Part shown: piece after piece, positions 1,049 to 19,378 of the stretch
Layout: every line of letters starts with the position of its first letter
Numbering within the stretch: the first letter of the stretch is position 1
Assembly: GCF_030519655.1 (NCBI RefSeq)
Contig: NZ_JAUMIT010000003.1
Location: forward strand, 248,001-312,000
DNA: 64,000 bases
Reading direction: 5' to 3'
Source of the DNA: Wenyingzhuangia gilva
GTDB taxonomy: Bacteria; Bacteroidota; Bacteroidia; Flavobacteriales; Flavobacteriaceae
Made by a program: the position numbers and the translations under genes
The notes under the pieces: model-generated
What the model saw: the letters and a program-made list of their open reading frames with translations, nothing else
What the model was told of the DNA's origin: nothing
Databases searched by the model: none

Positions 1049-4000
1049 TTAAAAAGTTAAGTTTATGTTAAACCCTAATGATTTAACAGATGGCACACTA
1101 GCAAATTCAACTGTTGCCCCAGGTCCTCCTGTACCAAAAAAGTTTACTTCTGGATCTATGTGAGGTACATTATCATCAATAATCCAAAGATTTCTAGCTT
1201 CTACACCAAGTCTAAGTCTTGTAATACCTGTTTTTTTAAGTAATTTAGAAGGCACATTATAGAAAAAGTTAATTTCTCGTAATTTCACATATGAGGCATC
1301 AAATATGTTACCTTCTGTATTTGATGTTCCGCTTTGGTTTGTCCAGTACTCTTCCATATTAGTAACTGCAGTTGTGTTTTCTACATAGGAAACAGAACCA
1401 TCAGTATTTGTTACTTCGTTAACACCAGCATCTATATAGGTTTCACCTCTATGAGCTAGCGTTTCTTTTGCCAATCCTGATGATCGTAAATTAGCAGTTG
1501 TTCCAGAAAACAAAGTTCCACCGTGTTTGATATCAATTAAAAAACCTAAACCAAAATTCTTATAAGTAAAAGAGTTATTGATACCCATTGTCCAATCTGG
1601 AGCAGTGTCTCCTAATCTTTGATTTGTAACCACTTCTTTTAAACCAGTATCAGTGTTTATAATGTACTCACCATTATCATTTGTTTTAAATTTAGTACCA
1701 TAAAGACCAAATTCTTCTCCTGGAGCTGCTTTTATTGTTAATCCAGACCACCCACTCTTTAATTGAAATTCATCAAGACCGTCAATTAAGCTAGTAACTT
1801 TTTGTTGGTTTTTATTAAATACAATCCCTAAATCCCATTGAAATTTACTGTTGGTATTGATAAGAGGAGAAAGATTAACATCTAATTCAATCCCTTTGTT
1901 ATTAACAACTCCTGCGTTTAATGTTTTGCTAAAAAAACCAGTACTTTCAGGAACTGAAATATCAAGTAATTGATCGGAAGTATTTGAATTATAATAAGTA
2001 AAGCCAATATTAGCAATGTTCTTAAAGAGTTTAAGATCAAACCCTAATTCAAATTCTTTTTTTCGTTGAGGTTTTAATTCAGCATTTGGAAGTACTCTAG
2101 GAGCTTCAAATCCAATAATTCCTCCTTGTGGCAAATTGTTACTAAGACTAAATTGTACGTAGTAATCATTTGAAGGAACAAAACCAAATAGAAGGCTATA
2201 TGGTTCTGCATCTGAACCTACCTCTGCATAACCTGCTCTAATTTTACCAAAGCTAAGAATGCTTTTGTCTTCTATAAATTCAGAAAAAACAATGGCACCG
2301 TTTACAGAAGGGTAGAAGTAAGAATTATTATCAGCTGGTAAAGTAGAGCTCCAATCATTTCTTCCTGTTAAATTTAAGAAAAAAGTGTTTTTATAATCTA
2401 AGTTAATATCAGTATATACACCGTATAATTCTTTTTTAGAACTAAAATCTGTTCCGTTAAGTGTTTCAGCATTACCTAGTACATATAACCCAGGTACAGT
2501 AAGGTTGTTCCCCGTTAAAGTAGTACGCTCATATTTTGTTTGATATAAGTTGTGTCCTAAAATAGCACTTATAGAAATTCCGTCTTTACTATCTTTAGTA
2601 TAACTTAAATAAAAATCGTTGTTAATAATTTGGTTATAATAATCCCAATTGGTAAAGCTACCTTTTAGAGTCCCCAAACTTCCTACGGCGTATAATTTTT
2701 GTCTACTCTCATTGAAAAAATCTGTACCTAACTTGTTTACTAATTTAAGGTTTTTAGTAATCTTATAATCTAATGTGGCACTACCAATAAACCTTTCTAA
2801 ACGTATAGAGAATGGGTTTTGGTTTAAAACCCAATAAGGATTGTTTGATCTTTGTGTTAAAGGTATCTGATCTCCTGCCGCATTAATATAATTATTTTTT
2901 AAGTCGTCAAAAGAAATGGTTCTAGACATCCCTAGAATATTATCAATAACTACGTTACCATCATTAGAACCTTGTTGAGTCCTTCCGCTAGAAGTTGAAT
3001 TAATGTAGTTGATATTTGTTCTTAGTGTAAATTTATCAGTAAAATTTCTACCTACATTTAAAGTGTAGTTGTTCTTTTTGTAATTGCTGTTAGGAACAAT
3101 TCCTTCTACATTTGAATTTGTATAGGAAAATCTATAGTCAGATTTTGTGTCTCCTCCAGAAAAAGCAACAGAGTTTATTTTTGTTATTCCAGTATTAAAA
3201 AAGTCCTTAACATTATTTGGTTTTGCAGATAAAGTAACATCGTCACCTTTAAAATCAGTAAATGTTTGGTTAGCAACATCTGAAATTTTAGGTCCCCAAC
3301 CATTTACAGCGTCTTTATCATATGTTCCAGACGTTCCTTGTGCATATTCATTTTGGTATTCTGGAAGTTTTAATGGAGAGTCAAAGCGCAAAGAAGAATT
3401 AACATCTATTTTTAAACCACTGTTTTTATTTCCTTTTTTAGTGGTAATTATAATTGCTCCATTTTTTGCTCTTGCTCCATATAAAGCACTTGCAGAGGCA
3501 CCTTTTAGTACAGAAACAGATTCAATATCATCTGGGTTAAGGTCTCCAGCTCTGTTACCTCCATCGACACCTCCTGTAATATCATCTTGATTAAATGATT
3601 GGTTACTTATTGGCATACCATCAATAACAAAAATAGGTTGATTGCTTCCCGATAAAGAGGTTGCACCTCTAATAATTACAGAAGAACTTCCACCGGGTGT
3701 TCCAGATTGTTGTGTAATTTTTAATCCTGAAACTTTTCCTGATAGTGCTTCTATCGGACTTGTGCTTCTTGCTCTGGTTAGGCTTTCATTGTCTACCTCT
3801 CCAACAGATACTCCTAGCCCTCTTTCTTTTTTAGAAATTCCAAGAGCCGTAATGACCACTTCATCTAAGGATTCAATATTTCCTTTTAATGTAGTGTTTA
3901 TAATACTACTCGTTCCAACAGTTTTTTCAACTGTTTCCATACCTACATAACTAAATTGTAGAATATCTCCTTCTTTGGCATTAATGTTGTAAAGTCCGTC

Positions 4001-4168
4001 AAAGTCTGTCAAGGTTCCTGCTGAAGATCCTTTTATCATAACAGTTGCTCCTGGTAATGGACCAGAATCATCGGAAACAGTTCCGCTAATTGTTTTCGTT
4101 TGCGCAAACGAAAATTGAGTTGTTAATGCTATCATTAGCATTAAGATTTTGGGAGTTTTTAGCTTCAT
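1049..4168 (-). CDS. SusC/RagA family TonB-linked outer-membrane transporter
   Basis: 1039 residues, usual for SusC. Residues 1-22 are a signal peptide ending in FAQ. Residues 25-100 form a carboxypeptidase-regulatory-like domain (ISGTVSDDSGPLPGATVMIKG). A TonB-box-like stretch LDEVVITALG lies at 101-110, then the plug domain (IEALSGKVSGLKI, IRGATSL, PIFVIDGMPI), then a long beta-barrel ending in Phe (NINLTF), as in barrels inserted by BAM. There is no N-terminal STN domain, and no sigma/anti-sigma pair beside it. It is the first gene of an operon with the SusD gene that continues off the left edge. Together they should import an oligomer across the outer membrane using TonB energy. Substrate unknown. 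Confidence 0.96.
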   Translation of the reverse strand: MKLKTPKILMLMIALTTQFSFAQTKTISGTVSDDSGPLPGATVMIKGSSAGTLTDFDGLYNINAKEGDILQFSYVGMETVEKTVGTSSIINTTLKGNIESLDEVVITALGISKKERGLGVSVGEVDNESLTRARSTSPIEALSGKVSGLKITQQSGTPGGSSSVIIRGATSLSGSNQPIFVIDGMPISNQSFNQDDITGGVDGGNRAGDLNPDDIESVSVLKGASASALYGARAKNGAIIITTKKGNKNSGLKIDVNSSLRFDSPLKLPEYQNEYAQGTSGTYDKDAVNGWGPKISDVANQTFTDFKGDDVTLSAKPNNVKDFFNTGITKINSVAFSGGDTKSDYRFSYTNSNVEGIVPNSNYKKNNYTLNVGRNFTDKFTLRTNINYINSTSSGRTQQGSNDGNVVIDNILGMSRTISFDDLKNNYINAAGDQIPLTQRSNNPYWVLNQNPFSIRLERFIGSATLDYKITKNLKLVNKLGTDFFNESRQKLYAVGSLGTLKGSFTNWDYYNQIINNDFYLSYTKDSKDGISISAILGHNLYQTKYERTTLTGNNLTVPGLYVLGNAETLNGTDFSSKKELYGVYTDINLDYKNTFFLNLTGRNDWSSTLPADNNSYFYPSVNGAIVFSEFIEDKSILSFGKIRAGYAEVGSDAEPYSLLFGFVPSNDYYVQFSLSNNLPQGGIIGFEAPRVLPNAELKPQRKKEFELGFDLKLFKNIANIGFTYYNSNTSDQLLDISVPESTGFFSKTLNAGVVNNKGIELDVNLSPLINTNSKFQWDLGIVFNKNQQKVTSLIDGLDEFQLKSGWSGLTIKAAPGEEFGLYGTKFKTNDNGEYIINTDTGLKEVVTNQRLGDTAPDWTMGINNSFTYKNFGLGFLIDIKHGGTLFSGTTANLRSSGLAKETLAHRGETYIDAGVNEVTNTDGSVSYVENTTAVTNMEEYWTNQSGTSNTEGNIFDASYVKLREINFFYNVPSKLLKKTGITRLRLGVEARNLWIIDDNVPHIDPEVNFFGTGGPGATVEFASVPSVKSLGFNINLTF

Positions 4169-4188
4169 ATTTATAGATATTTAATTAG

Positions 4189-4272
4189 GTTCTTTGAAAG
4201 TATCAATACCCAAAATTTGCAGGTAAATCGGGGTATTAATTGATGTATATTCTTTTTGATATTTCAAAGAAC
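4189..4272 (-). promoter_or_regulatory. Nested inverted repeats upstream of susC
   Basis: An 11-bp perfect inverted repeat (GTTCTTTGAAA at 4189-4199 and TTTCAAAGAAC at 4262-4272) encloses a second one (AATACCC at 4205-4211 and GGGTATT at 4231-4237). The inner arms end about 40-70 bp before the susC ATG at 4168. On the minus strand this could fold as a two-level hairpin in the mRNA leader, or be a DNA site for a regulator. The sequence does not decide between them. No clear TAnnTTTG element is placed close to it. Confidence 0.4.
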
Positions 4273-16624: not shown

Positions 16625-17860
16625 TTGAATTTCGAATTATTTATAGCTAACAGACTAACTAGGTCTCAGGAATATAAAAATAGTGTTTCATCTCCCATTA
16701 TAAAAATAGCAATTATAGCTATAGCATTGGGTATGATGATGATGTTAATTTCTATTGCTACAGGAATTGGACTGCAAAGAAAAATTAGAGATAAAGTTGC
16801 AGGCTTTAATGGTCATGTAGTAATTAGTAATTACGACAACAATCAATCTAAAACCACACAGAAACCAATAAATATTCATCAAAATTTTTATCCAAAATTT
16901 ACTAATGTTTCTGGAATTAAGCATGTTCAGGTTTTTGCTACCAGAGCAGGAATTATAAGAACCGAGAATACTTTTGAAGGTGTTGTTTTAAAAGGTGTTG
17001 ATAAAGATTACGATTGGTCTTTTTTTAAAGAATATTTGGTGACAGGAAAAGTACCTGTTTTTAGTAATAAGATTTCTAAAGAAGTATTAATTTCTAAAAC
17101 AATTGCTGATAGAATGCAATTTAAATTGAATGATACTTTTGAAACTTTTTTTATCAAAGAAGATCCTAATACCATGCCAAATAGGAGAGTTTTTAAAATT
17201 GCAGGAATTTACGATACTGGTTTTGAAGAGTTTGATAAAAATATCATGATTGGAGATATCAATCAAATTAGAAGTTTAAATAAATGGACCGATAATCAGG
17301 TAGGTGGTTTTGAAGTTTTTGTAAATGATTTTAATGAGATTGATAGCAAATCAAAAGAAATTTATCAAGAGATTGATGTGACCTTAGATAGTCAAAGTTT
17401 ATTTGAACAATATCCTCAAATTTTTGAATGGCTACAATTGTTTGATGGAAACATAGCCGTCATCATTATTATTATGGTGATTGTTGCAGGAATCAATATG
17501 ATTACTGCTTTGCTAGTATTAATATTAGAAAGAACACAGTTAATAGGGGTTTTAAAAACCTTAGGAGCAAAGAGTTGGTCTATTCGTAAAATATTTTTGT
17601 ACAATGCTTCTTACATTATAGGTAGAGGTTTATTAATCGGGAATATTGCCGGATTGCTAATTATTTATTTGCAATATCAGTTTAAGTTTATAGAATTAGA
17701 TCCTCAAAATTATTATGTGCATGTAGCCCCAGTATATATTACACTTGTACAAGTTTTGATTTTAAATTTAGGAACACTTATTTTATGTGTTTTAATGATG
17801 TTGATTCCCTCTTATATTATTACAAGAATTAGTCCTGCTAAATCTGTAAAATTCTCATAA
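16625..17860 (+). CDS. FtsX-like ABC transporter permease (LolC/LolE type)
   Basis: 411 residues, TTG start (MNFELFIANRL), the usual N-terminus of flavobacterial members. Topology is that of LolC/E: one membrane segment at about 25-45 (IIKIAIIAIALGMMMMLISIA), a large periplasmic domain, then three C-terminal segments (from about 280, 325 and 375). It ends at ISPAKSVKFS. It probably works with an ATPase encoded elsewhere in moving lipoproteins from the inner membrane. No ATPase gene is adjacent. Its end is directly followed by the terminator of the first tandem repeat unit. Confidence 0.93.
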   Translation: MNFELFIANRLTRSQEYKNSVSSPIIKIAIIAIALGMMMMLISIATGIGLQRKIRDKVAGFNGHVVISNYDNNQSKTTQKPINIHQNFYPKFTNVSGIKHVQVFATRAGIIRTENTFEGVVLKGVDKDYDWSFFKEYLVTGKVPVFSNKISKEVLISKTIADRMQFKLNDTFETFFIKEDPNTMPNRRVFKIAGIYDTGFEEFDKNIMIGDINQIRSLNKWTDNQVGGFEVFVNDFNEIDSKSKEIYQEIDVTLDSQSLFEQYPQIFEWLQLFDGNIAVIIIIMVIVAGINMITALLVLILERTQLIGVLKTLGAKSWSIRKIFLYNASYIIGRGLLIGNIAGLLIIYLQYQFKFIELDPQNYYVHVAPVYITLVQVLILNLGTLILCVLMMLIPSYIITRISPAKSVKFS

Positions 17861-17939
17861 AAAAACCTCCATTGGGGATGGAGGTTTTTTCAAACTAACT
17901 AAAACTATCTAAACTATGAAAAACTATTTTGTTTTACAT
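17861..17939 (-). ncRNA. Candidate small RNA, unit 1
   Basis: On the minus strand TTGGCACACTAATTGA (17951-17966) resembles a -24/-12 promoter (consensus TGGCAC-N5-TTGC, with A for the last C). A start at 24 bp from the second G gives about 17939. The RNA would be ~79 nt, ending at the CCTCC/GGAGG intrinsic terminator. A sigma-70-like reading (TTGGCA with an AT-rich -10) is also possible. Confidence 0.4.
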
Positions 17940-18020
17940 TAAATAGATATTCAATTAGTGTGCCAAGAACTACTTTTAGAATAAAATAATATCAATTATT
18001 TACTAGATCTTTATCCACAA

Positions 18021-18099
18021 AAAAACCTCCATTGGGGATGGAGGTTTTTTCAAACTAACTAAAACTATTTAAACTATGAAAAACTATTTTGTTTTACAC
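18021..18099 (-). ncRNA. Candidate small RNA, unit 2
   Basis: Same layout as unit 1: promoter-like TTGGCACACTAATTGA at 18111-18126 on the minus strand, predicted start near 18099, terminator at 18019-18050. Predicted length ~79 nt. The body is almost identical to units 1 and 3. Confidence 0.42.
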
Positions 18100-18181
18100 T
18101 ATATAGATATTCAATTAGTGTGCCAAGAACTACTTTTTAGGATAAAATAAAATCGATTTTTTACTAGATTTTGATGCATAA

Positions 18182-18259
18182 AAAAACCTCCATTGGGGAT
18201 GGAGGTTTTTTCAAACTAACTAAACTATTTAAACTATGAAAAACTATTTTGTTTTACAT
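18182..18259 (-). ncRNA. Candidate small RNA, unit 3
   Basis: Promoter-like TTGGCACACTAATTGA at 18271-18286 on the minus strand, with TATAAT 17 bp after TTGGCA as a possible alternative -10. Predicted start near 18259, terminator at 18181-18211, ~78 nt. The body repeats the TAGTTT motif several times before the hairpin. Confidence 0.42.
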
Positions 18260-18341
18260 TATATAGATATTCAATTAGTGTGCCAAGAACTACTTTTTGG
18301 GATAAAATAAAATCGATTTTTTACTAGATTTTGATGCATAA

Positions 18342-18423
18342 AAAAACCTCCATTGGGGATGGAGGTTTTTTCAAACTAACTAAACTATCTAAACTATGAA
18401 AAAAACTATGATGTTTTTTATAT
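18342..18423 (-). ncRNA. Candidate small RNA, unit 4 (diverged copy)
   Basis: Just beyond the lipA stop, TTGGCACGATACTTGA (18435-18450, minus strand) matches the -24/-12 consensus except for the final C. TATAAT again lies 17 bp after TTGGCA. Predicted start near 18423, terminator at 18340-18371, ~82 nt. The promoter spacer and 5' part differ from units 1-3 while the promoter core, TAGTTT-rich part and terminator are kept. That argues the conserved parts are functional. Confidence 0.45.
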
Positions 18424-18454
18424 TATATGGTTTATCAAGTATCGTGCCAAAAAG

Positions 18455-19378
18455 TTAGTTAACATGTTTTTTTGCATGATAAGAAGATCTTACCAAAGCA
18501 GAACTTTCTACATGTTTAAATCCTAAAGATTTTGCATATACTTCGTATTCTTTAAATAACTCTGGTGTAATGTATTCTTTTACAGGTAAGTGCTTTTTAC
18601 TAGGCTGTAAATATTGTCCTAAAGTAACAACATCTACGTTGGCATTTGCTAAATCTCTTAAGCTTTCAAAAACTTCTTCTTTTTTTTCTCCTAAACCTAA
18701 CATAATACCAGATTTGGTTCTGCGTTGTCCTTGTGATTTGATGTATCTTAACACTTCTAAGCTTCTGTCGTATTGTGCTTGTATACGCACCTCACGAGTT
18801 AGTCTACGAACGGTTTCTATGTTGTGAGAAATTACTTCAGGAGCAGCAGCAATCAATCTATCAATGTTTTTGGTGTCTCCTTGGAAATCTGGAATTAATG
18901 TTTCCATTGTAGTGTTTGGATTGGCTCTACGAACGGCAGCAATGGTTTCTGCCCAAATAATAGAACCACCATCTTTTAAGTCATCTCTATCAACAGAGGT
19001 TAATACAGCATGTTCAATGCTCATAATTTTAATAGAACGTGCTACTTTTTCAGGCTCATCCCACTCAACAGTTTCTGGTTTTCCGGTTTTTACACCACAA
19101 AAACCACAAGATCTAGTACAAATATTTCCTAAAATCATAAAAGTAGCAGTTCCATCACCCCAACATTCTCCCATGTTAGGACAACTACCACTAGTACAAA
19201 TAGTGTTTAGTTTATATTTATCTACCAATCCACGTAATTCAGTGTATTTTTTTCCAACAGGTAACTTAACTCTTAACCAATCTGGTTTTTTATTTCCAAC
19301 AGGAATAGTACCAGGATTTGTAGTTGTTTGTGCTTTATTTGGTAATACAGATTTAAATGTAGTTGCTTCCGTACTCAT
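18455..19378 (-). CDS. lipA: Lipoyl synthase
   Basis: 307 residues from the ATG at 19378 (MSTEATTF). A longer frame back to 19522 overlaps the neighbouring permease gene and is unlikely. LipA inserts two sulphurs into protein-bound octanoyl groups. The auxiliary-cluster cysteines Cys61, Cys66 and Cys72 (CTSGSCPNMGEC), the radical-SAM motif CTRSCGFC (Cys87, Cys91, Cys94) and the C-terminal RSSYHA are all present. It is the last gene of a minus-strand run; the candidate small-RNA array lies directly downstream. Confidence 0.97.
   Translation of the reverse strand: MSTEATTFKSVLPNKAQTTTNPGTIPVGNKKPDWLRVKLPVGKKYTELRGLVDKYKLNTICTSGSCPNMGECWGDGTATFMILGNICTRSCGFCGVKTGKPETVEWDEPEKVARSIKIMSIEHAVLTSVDRDDLKDGGSIIWAETIAAVRRANPNTTMETLIPDFQGDTKNIDRLIAAAPEVISHNIETVRRLTREVRIQAQYDRSLEVLRYIKSQGQRRTKSGIMLGLGEKKEEVFESLRDLANANVDVVTLGQYLQPSKKHLPVKEYITPELFKEYEVYAKSLGFKHVESSALVRSSYHAKKHVN

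Follow-up and report, generated by a model that had tools for sequence, protein, structure and literature searches.

What do the short tandem repeats between lipA and a convergent permease gene in Wenyingzhuangia gilva encode? The initial annotation of this locus – which lies in a 64,000-nucleotide stretch of DNA, hereafter the window – proposed four ~160-bp units downstream of lipA, each a minus-strand small RNA (sRNA) gene with a promoter-like TTGGCAC-N5-TTGA element and a common intrinsic terminator. Our analyses confirmed that a four-unit minus-strand tandem array is real (17856–18457; Table 1). A repeat analysis of the window identified a 48-nt block that recurs four times at spacings of 160, 161, and 160, and a tandem array at 17856–18403 with a period of 160 nt, 3.4 copies, and 95% matches. 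On the minus strand, all four ~160-bp units contain TTGGCAC-N5-TTGA, a predicted RNA, and a 13-bp hairpin followed by a T run, the hairpin being a perfect inverted repeat (AAAAAACCTCCAT/ATGGAGGTTTTTT) in every unit. The annotation was thus correct about the number and spacing of the units, the element, and the terminator.

Units are numbered here in the direction of transcription, so that u1 adjoins lipA and corresponds to the annotation's unit 4 (18337–18457). That unit had been described as the diverged one, and it is indeed only 80–82% identical to u2–u4, compared with 97% among those three. Placing the predicted sRNA start 27 nt past the first base of the element (sigma-54 spacing; not mapped experimentally) gives RNAs of 84, 80, 81, and 81 nt for u1–u4, close to the previously proposed 78–82 nt, with u1 slightly outside that range. 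The predicted fold comprises a weak 5′ hairpin, an exposed seed of ~32 nt, and the terminator hairpin, and two of the units fold better than shuffled sequences (z −3.8 and −4.4). A terminator scan returned no sites in the array, though the hairpin and T run are plain in the sequence; the likely cause, in our view, is that the stem pairs into the T run. The u4 terminator is symmetric and may also terminate the convergent plus-strand permease gene. When one unit was searched against the genome, only the four array units matched at E ≤ 0.001. An Rfam comparison, which had been suggested as a check, gave no family match at the gathering threshold anywhere in the window.

Table 1. Positions (window numbering) of the array units, neighboring genes, and the candidate target within the window.
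Feature	Position	Strand	Comment
u1 −24/−12 element TTGGCACGATACTTGAT	18434..18450	−	GG and TTG invariant in 20/20 aligned units
u1 predicted sRNA, 84 nt	18340..18423	−	start inferred from sigma-54 spacing, not mapped
u1 exposed seed UUUUUCAUAGUUUAGAUAGUUUAGUUAGUUUG	18372..18403	−	unpaired in predicted fold; SusC-start pairing reached by 0/200 shuffles
u1 terminator hairpin	18341..18371	−	
u2 −24/−12 element TTGGCACACTAATTGAA	18270..18286	−	
u2 predicted sRNA, 80 nt	18180..18259	−	
u2 exposed seed	18212..18243	−	
u2 terminator hairpin	18181..18211	−	
u3 −24/−12 element	18110..18126	−	
u3 predicted sRNA, 81 nt	18019..18099	−	
u3 exposed seed	18051..18083	−	
u3 terminator hairpin	18020..18050	−	
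u4 −24/−12 element	17950..17966	−	
u4 predicted sRNA, 81 nt	17859..17939	−	
u4 exposed seed	17891..17923	−	
u4 terminator hairpin	17860..17890	−	
lipA (lipoyl synthase)	18455..19378	−	upstream same-strand neighbor, anchor of the array
FtsX/MacB-type permease	16625..17860	+	convergent neighbor
Candidate-target SusC start region	4144..4228	−	duplex −15.4 kcal/mol with array seed, prediction only

We built a covariance model of the unit (R1) and searched the seven genomes of the genus examined, including that of the window. All seven encode one to five units right after lipA, supplying the copy count in relatives that had been proposed as a further check: five in G001, four each in G003 and G006, one in G005, and three full units plus cut units at contig ends in G004. 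G002 has three units with a run of Ns between units 2 and 3 (L007, G002:C1) – an assembly gap or withheld stretch – so its copy number is a minimum. Synteny is conserved in all seven genomes, with lipA directly upstream and the permease downstream (across a contig break in G004). Among 20 aligned units from five genomes, TGGCA is invariant, as is a TTG at a fixed distance from it; C replaces T before TGG in one unit, and T replaces C after TGGCA in three. The TAGTTTAGTTAGTTTGAA block is largely retained outside one short unit, G3_u4, in which the seed is incomplete. Terminator stems vary between species, with 5 of 10 consensus pairs changed on both sides. The claim that these are minus-strand transcription units is supported by this comparison, in which the −24/−12 element, the TAGTTT-rich exposed stretch, and the terminator are kept while spacers change, though there are no transcript data.

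Unit sequences also bear on the history of the array. Unit u1 is most like the first unit of G001 (86%), suggesting that this unit arose before the two species diverged; the remaining units of the two genomes are 88–99% alike. In G002 and G006 each array is internally uniform (92–97% and 81–97%, respectively) but only 47–68% like the window's array, a pattern that points to repeated expansion or homogenization. A strict pattern (sigma-54 element plus TAGTTTAGTTAGTT) was found in two of 397 genomes of the family, both of them from the genus; it is evidently too strict, since it missed G001 despite its five units. Weak R1 matches in the window's genome (L079) and in G002 (L075) lack a promoter and were set aside. 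Separately, we observed a second, diverged locus with one or two sRNA-like units in three genomes, including our own (G000:C1:985770, L077; G001:C1:709823, L078; G005:C4:18258, L063). Its units combine a −24/−12 element, a UAGUUU-rich stretch, and a strong terminator, and lie upstream of a TrhO/YceA-like rhodanese gene.

To look beyond the genus, we used a LipA query to collect 80 named lipA loci of other Flavobacteriaceae, screened ~260 nt past lipA for the pattern, and read 17 loci by eye. By this visual judgment, a unit of the same build lies within ~180 nt past lipA in 10 of the 80 loci: L125, L138, and L142 (two copies each), L133, L145, L112, and L150 in Lutibacter (L150 being the weakest), L146 and L154 in Tenacibaculum, and L149. 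The other 70 loci were only screened, except for seven that were read, five of which have another gene directly next. Folding predictions give the typical RNA outside the genus a 5′ hairpin (e.g., GAAAACAAAG...CTTTGTTTTC), an unpaired CATTGTATAAATTATTTGAGTTAGTTAAAA, and a terminator. Nine loci with related units had no Rfam match at the gathering threshold. According to the initial annotation, relatives that have the array without the promoter-like element or the terminator would refute it. No such unit occurs among those read within the genus; outside it, a clear −24/−12 element is missing from one copy each in L138 and L142 (L138a, L142a) and from one of the three G031 copies. By our reading, L138a and L142a have an xAnnTTTG-like box instead. 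Both belong to paired copies after lipA (L138:4910–5172, L142:4908–5168) in which the first has this box and the second a −24/−12 element; the pairs may be paralogues under different sigma factors.

A second, sequence-only model (R2) was searched against 139 genomes. Beyond its training set it identified L112, units ~1 kb (L131) and ~3.3 kb (L127) past lipA, the three tandem copies after lipA in G031, one copy in G008, and one in G009 ~380 nt past lipA. At E ≤ 0.01, R2 had matches in 82 of the 139 genomes, most of them weak, and only nine genomes fell below 1e-6 (the seven genus genomes, G031, and G008). Because most matches are weak and R2 did not re-find its own training row L145 at E ≤ 1, we did not use this tally as a member count. 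Reading of 27 R2 loci led us to reject some as apparently antisense to gene starts (L242, L249) and others as terminators without a promoter. In the antisense cases (in G018 and G068), the start regions (ATGAAAAC...) appear by eye to resemble the sRNA complement enough for a model match.

We consider sigma-54 the best reading of the promoter, which the initial annotation had left unassigned, though this is inferred from conserved geometry and is not proof. The sigma-54 consensus is YTGGCA(C/T)-N5-TTG, with GG and TG kept. All 20 aligned units meet it, GG and TG included. Their −12 base is A, T, or G rather than the classical C; the classical TTGC occurs in three copies outside the genus (L138b, L112, and one G031 copy). 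Elements of the −24/−12 type are named for sigma-54 in the available portion of a study of Flavobacterium psychrophilum (PMC9723704). Consistent with this reading, the window's genome encodes rpoN and has three strong activator matches (227–240 bits); seven further matches over the cut-off, all <37 bits, were not counted because family matches occur in 14 of 14 control genomes. One activator gene is followed, by eye, by an LptE-like gene, a neighbor also listed for an activator in F. psychrophilum, where the sigma-54 motif precedes groESL, dnaK, clpB, lon, htpG, skp, and the sRNA Rfp36 (PMC9723704, in the part available). We further observed TTGGCAC-N5-TTG 57 nt upstream of the start of an Hsp20 gene in our genome (L228:18907–19401, contig C30), which fits a sigma-54 chaperone regulon of the kind described in the same excerpt (PMC9723704), and 62 nt upstream of a cytochrome c assembly gene. 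The N5 element is hardly enriched genome-wide: it has 13 sites in 864 kb, where five other spacings give 2, 5, 9, 5, and 8, and sRNA units account for 5 of the 13.

At lax Rfam thresholds the units resemble many families about equally (STnc370, 31.5 bits; ncr1015, 29.4 bits; Phe_leader, 27.9 bits; Thr_leader, E 0.004). We followed only FopS (RF04319, BTncRNA_FopS), for two reasons: the seeds align, and the target known for FopS can be tested. The score alone would be no justification. As far as the accessible text goes, FopS of Bacteroides thetaiotaomicron is a multicopy, sigma-AB-driven RNA whose features include a terminator and an exposed seed; it pairs close to the start codon of a susC mRNA and thereby represses translation, an effect counteracted by the RRM protein RbpB (PMC11697453). 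The 71-position Rfam model aligns full-length to all four units (27.6, 23.7, 21.5, and 21.1 bits), and UUUUUCAU-GU-UUAGAU is common to model and units. These scores fall well short of the gathering cut-off of 56 (E 0.05–0.9), and no RF04319 match exceeded that cut-off in any of 40 genomes, our own included (a Bacteroides control was positive).

The seed complement reads CAAACTAACTAAACTATTTAAACTATGAAAAA, like a flavobacterial gene start (TAACTAAA...ATGAAAAA). This resemblance and the weak FopS lead motivated a test of SusC starts for pairing, a connection absent from the initial annotation. The genome contains 19 SusC genes over the cut-off, one of them in the window (TIGR04056 match at 1052–4096, first ATG at 4168). 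As controls for the region from −60 to +25 of each, we used 660 starts of other genes, taken from the window and from 40 stretches; some starts will be wrong, since the first ATG was taken throughout, and the pairing energies ignore accessibility. Mean predicted seed duplexes were −15.8 kcal/mol for SusC and −10.7 kcal/mol for control starts (p=1.2e-9); of 200 dinucleotide-shuffled seeds, none gave a difference this large. The excess persisted when only the upstream part of the seed was used (19 vs 657, p=1.4e-6), while the 5′ hairpin part gave no SusC signal, its result being reached by 155 of 200 shuffles. Among the SusC leaders, one pair is 79% alike and no other exceeds 60%, ungapped. Of the two second-locus RNAs in this genome, one has a SusC signal (0/200 shuffles) and the other does not (137/200).

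We then asked whether each genome's own seed fits its own SusC starts. Shuffled seeds reached the observed mean in 0 of 300 trials for the window's genome (G000; 19 genes), 2 for G006 (15 of 21 genes), and 0 each for G031 (5 of 5), Tenacibaculum agarivorans (G456; 10 of 15), UBA2765 (G457; 10 of 10), and isolate 2-853-G (G458; 10 of 10). Cross-pairing separated the genomes into two blocks: the two genus seeds gave −16.1 to −16.7 with genus leaders and −11.6 to −15.6 with those of the other four genomes; the four other seeds gave −12.6 to −14.8 and −14.4 to −23.5, respectively. Seeds are largely interchangeable inside each block, so the fit is lineage-level rather than species-level.

These results have to be weighed against readings in which the repeats are something other than sigma-54-dependent RNA genes. 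They might be no RNA genes at all, but a bidirectional-terminator or REP-like repeat, or plus-strand duplicates of susC leader fragments serving as decoys or left as debris. A nearly symmetric terminator facing a convergent gene would suit the former and the plus-strand resemblance to a gene start with ATGAAAAA the latter. We nevertheless find this very improbable: conservation does not extend to the plus-strand frames (8, 24, 24, and 20 codons across the array, by eye, and no ATG there in G002), the genome has no close copy outside the array at E ≤ 0.001, and the conserved parts are a minus-strand promoter, set at fixed spacing, followed by seed and terminator. Processing of lipA read-through into ~80-nt pieces, with the promoter-like element unused, is scarcely credible; the array does directly follow lipA on the same strand, yet the first terminator should stop such a transcript before u2–u4, which keep the element regardless, and the distant L131 and L127 units carry elements of their own. 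It is also unlikely, in our estimation, that the sRNA genes are real and that housekeeping sigma-A or an ECF factor, rather than sigma-54, recognizes them. Two units do contain TTGGCA-N17-TATAAT, as initially annotated, and a third has TATAGT; Bacteroides FopS is sigma-AB driven, on the text available (PMC11697453); and L138a and L142a have the xAnnTTTG-like box. Across the 20 units, by eye, the TATAAT hexamer is not kept, unlike the invariant GG and TTG, and flavobacterial sigma-A boxes are given as TAnnTTTG in the accessible part of PMC9723704.

More doubt attaches to the targets. The main targets of the sRNAs could instead be a broad group of exported proteins, with A-rich leaders common in flavobacteria contributing part of the SusC signal. 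Two of the 19 SusC starts sit no higher than the 28th and 63rd control percentiles, and the best 30 of 660 controls (−21.7 to −15.9, one itself a SusC) include MKK-type exported proteins and carbohydrate-active enzymes; Pfam matches among ten of these 30 comprise rhamnogalacturonan lyase, pectinesterase, FtsH, PAP2, and a BatA protein. Other targets in addition to SusC are therefore likely. As a replacement for SusC, such a set seems to us doubtful without being dismissible, since SusC stands out not only against shuffled seeds but also among MK-starting genes (12 vs 208, p=5e-5) and AT-rich leaders (16 vs 381, p=3e-7). AACTAA lies upstream of 12 of 19 SusC and 56 of 660 control starts, and TAACTAAA upstream of 6 of 19 and 6 of 660. 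With seeds from other genera, duplexes with SusC leaders reach −35.1 kcal/mol, the strongest involving an MKTKF-type SusC start of 2-853-G.

FopS is, by analogy, the closest known RNA, and on paper the array would work in the same way, with an exposed seed, SusC starts as targets, and multiple copies. Seed pairing at susC start codons is a feature that the array shows by computation only, and the FopS consensus seed also fits the SusC starts of our genome (0/200 shuffles). The two differ in that the array RNAs have an extra 5′ hairpin, sit in tandem at lipA, and have a −24/−12 element instead of a sigma-AB promoter. The canonical sigma-ABfr promoter motif is not what the array units keep. A promoter of this class is named for FopS in the text accessible to us (PMC11697453). 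No RRM_1 (RbpB-type) match was found in our genome at E ≤ 0.001 (Bacteroides control positive), which does not exclude another binding protein. With the Rfam cut-off missed and the promoter class different as well, we do not assign the array RNAs to FopS. Whether the FopS and array seeds are homologous, or alike because both match SusC starts, remains open. In G037, from another family of the order, we observed two FopS-like loci (L320 and L322; 36.6 and 33.8 bits, cut-off 56) with UUUUUCAUAGUAAGAUUUUGGGUUAGUU, a seed that looks intermediate between FopS and the flavobacterial form. Eight weak R2 matches in other Flavobacteriales (L240, L241, L246, L247, L251, L253, L256, L259) have a GUUAGUU-like stretch followed by a terminator, several apparently just past a gene and without a −24/−12 element (by eye); these are possible 3′-UTR-derived FopS-like RNAs.

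Other sRNAs share single features with the array. Qrr sRNAs resemble the array in comprising several near-identical sRNAs; they are sigma-54 dependent and Hfq-dependent and belong to a quorum-sensing circuit. In Vibrio they form a multicopy family (PMC11697453, in the portion available). Rfp36 is likewise flavobacterial with a predicted sigma-54 promoter; homology is not established, and the accessible part of its report gives it no function (PMC9723704). RybB and MicA of enterobacteria illustrate a stress sigma factor, sigma-E, that drives sRNAs lowering outer-membrane protein mRNAs (PMC1804206, in part), though sigma factor, phylum, and targets all differ from those of the array. Among the matches listed in the open-access literature, supplementary tables not included, there was no report of a lipA-adjacent array, and SusC-targeting sRNAs came, in the portions available, from Bacteroides only.

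We therefore favor, with a probability of roughly 0.7, a sigma-54-controlled array of FopS-like sRNAs that represses SusC translation. The array, promoter geometry, seed, terminator, synteny, and excess SusC-start complementarity in six genomes are computed results; expression, sigma-54 dependence, the stress signal, and repression with its direction are inferred. Under the favored model, four tandem, independently transcribed genes would encode one ~80-nt trans-acting sRNA. Sigma-54 RNA polymerase and an enhancer-binding activator would switch on each unit, probably upon envelope or protein-folding stress, and each transcript would stop at its own terminator. The seed would pair around the start codon of mRNAs for SusC-family proteins (TonB-dependent glycan importers), UUUUUCAU with AUGAAAAA and UUUAGUUA with an UAACUAAA-like motif 9–39 nt upstream. 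Such duplexes would keep translation from initiating, the effect reported for Bacteroides FopS, and the tandem copies might provide dosage, which is a guess.

A wider hypothesis, which we hold tentatively and at somewhat less than even odds, is that FopS and the flavobacterial RNAs are branches of one phylum-wide lineage with a seed antisense to the SusC start. In Flavobacteriaceae this lineage would have been rewired to sigma-54 as the Bacteroidota counterpart of sigma-E/RybB, with envelope stress shutting off TonB-dependent importers, tandem growth at lipA, seeds and susC leaders co-adapted by lineage, and no need for RbpB. SusC-type importers are numerous in glycan-degrading flavobacteria, and our genome alone has 19. 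If the favored model is true, the array would be a switchable brake on the synthesis of outer-membrane sugar importers, and it would suggest that FopS-like control can operate without RbpB. Flavobacteriaceae would then offer a concrete, mutable circuit linking sigma-54, an sRNA, and SusC, along with a natural dosage series of one to five tandem copies at one conserved site.
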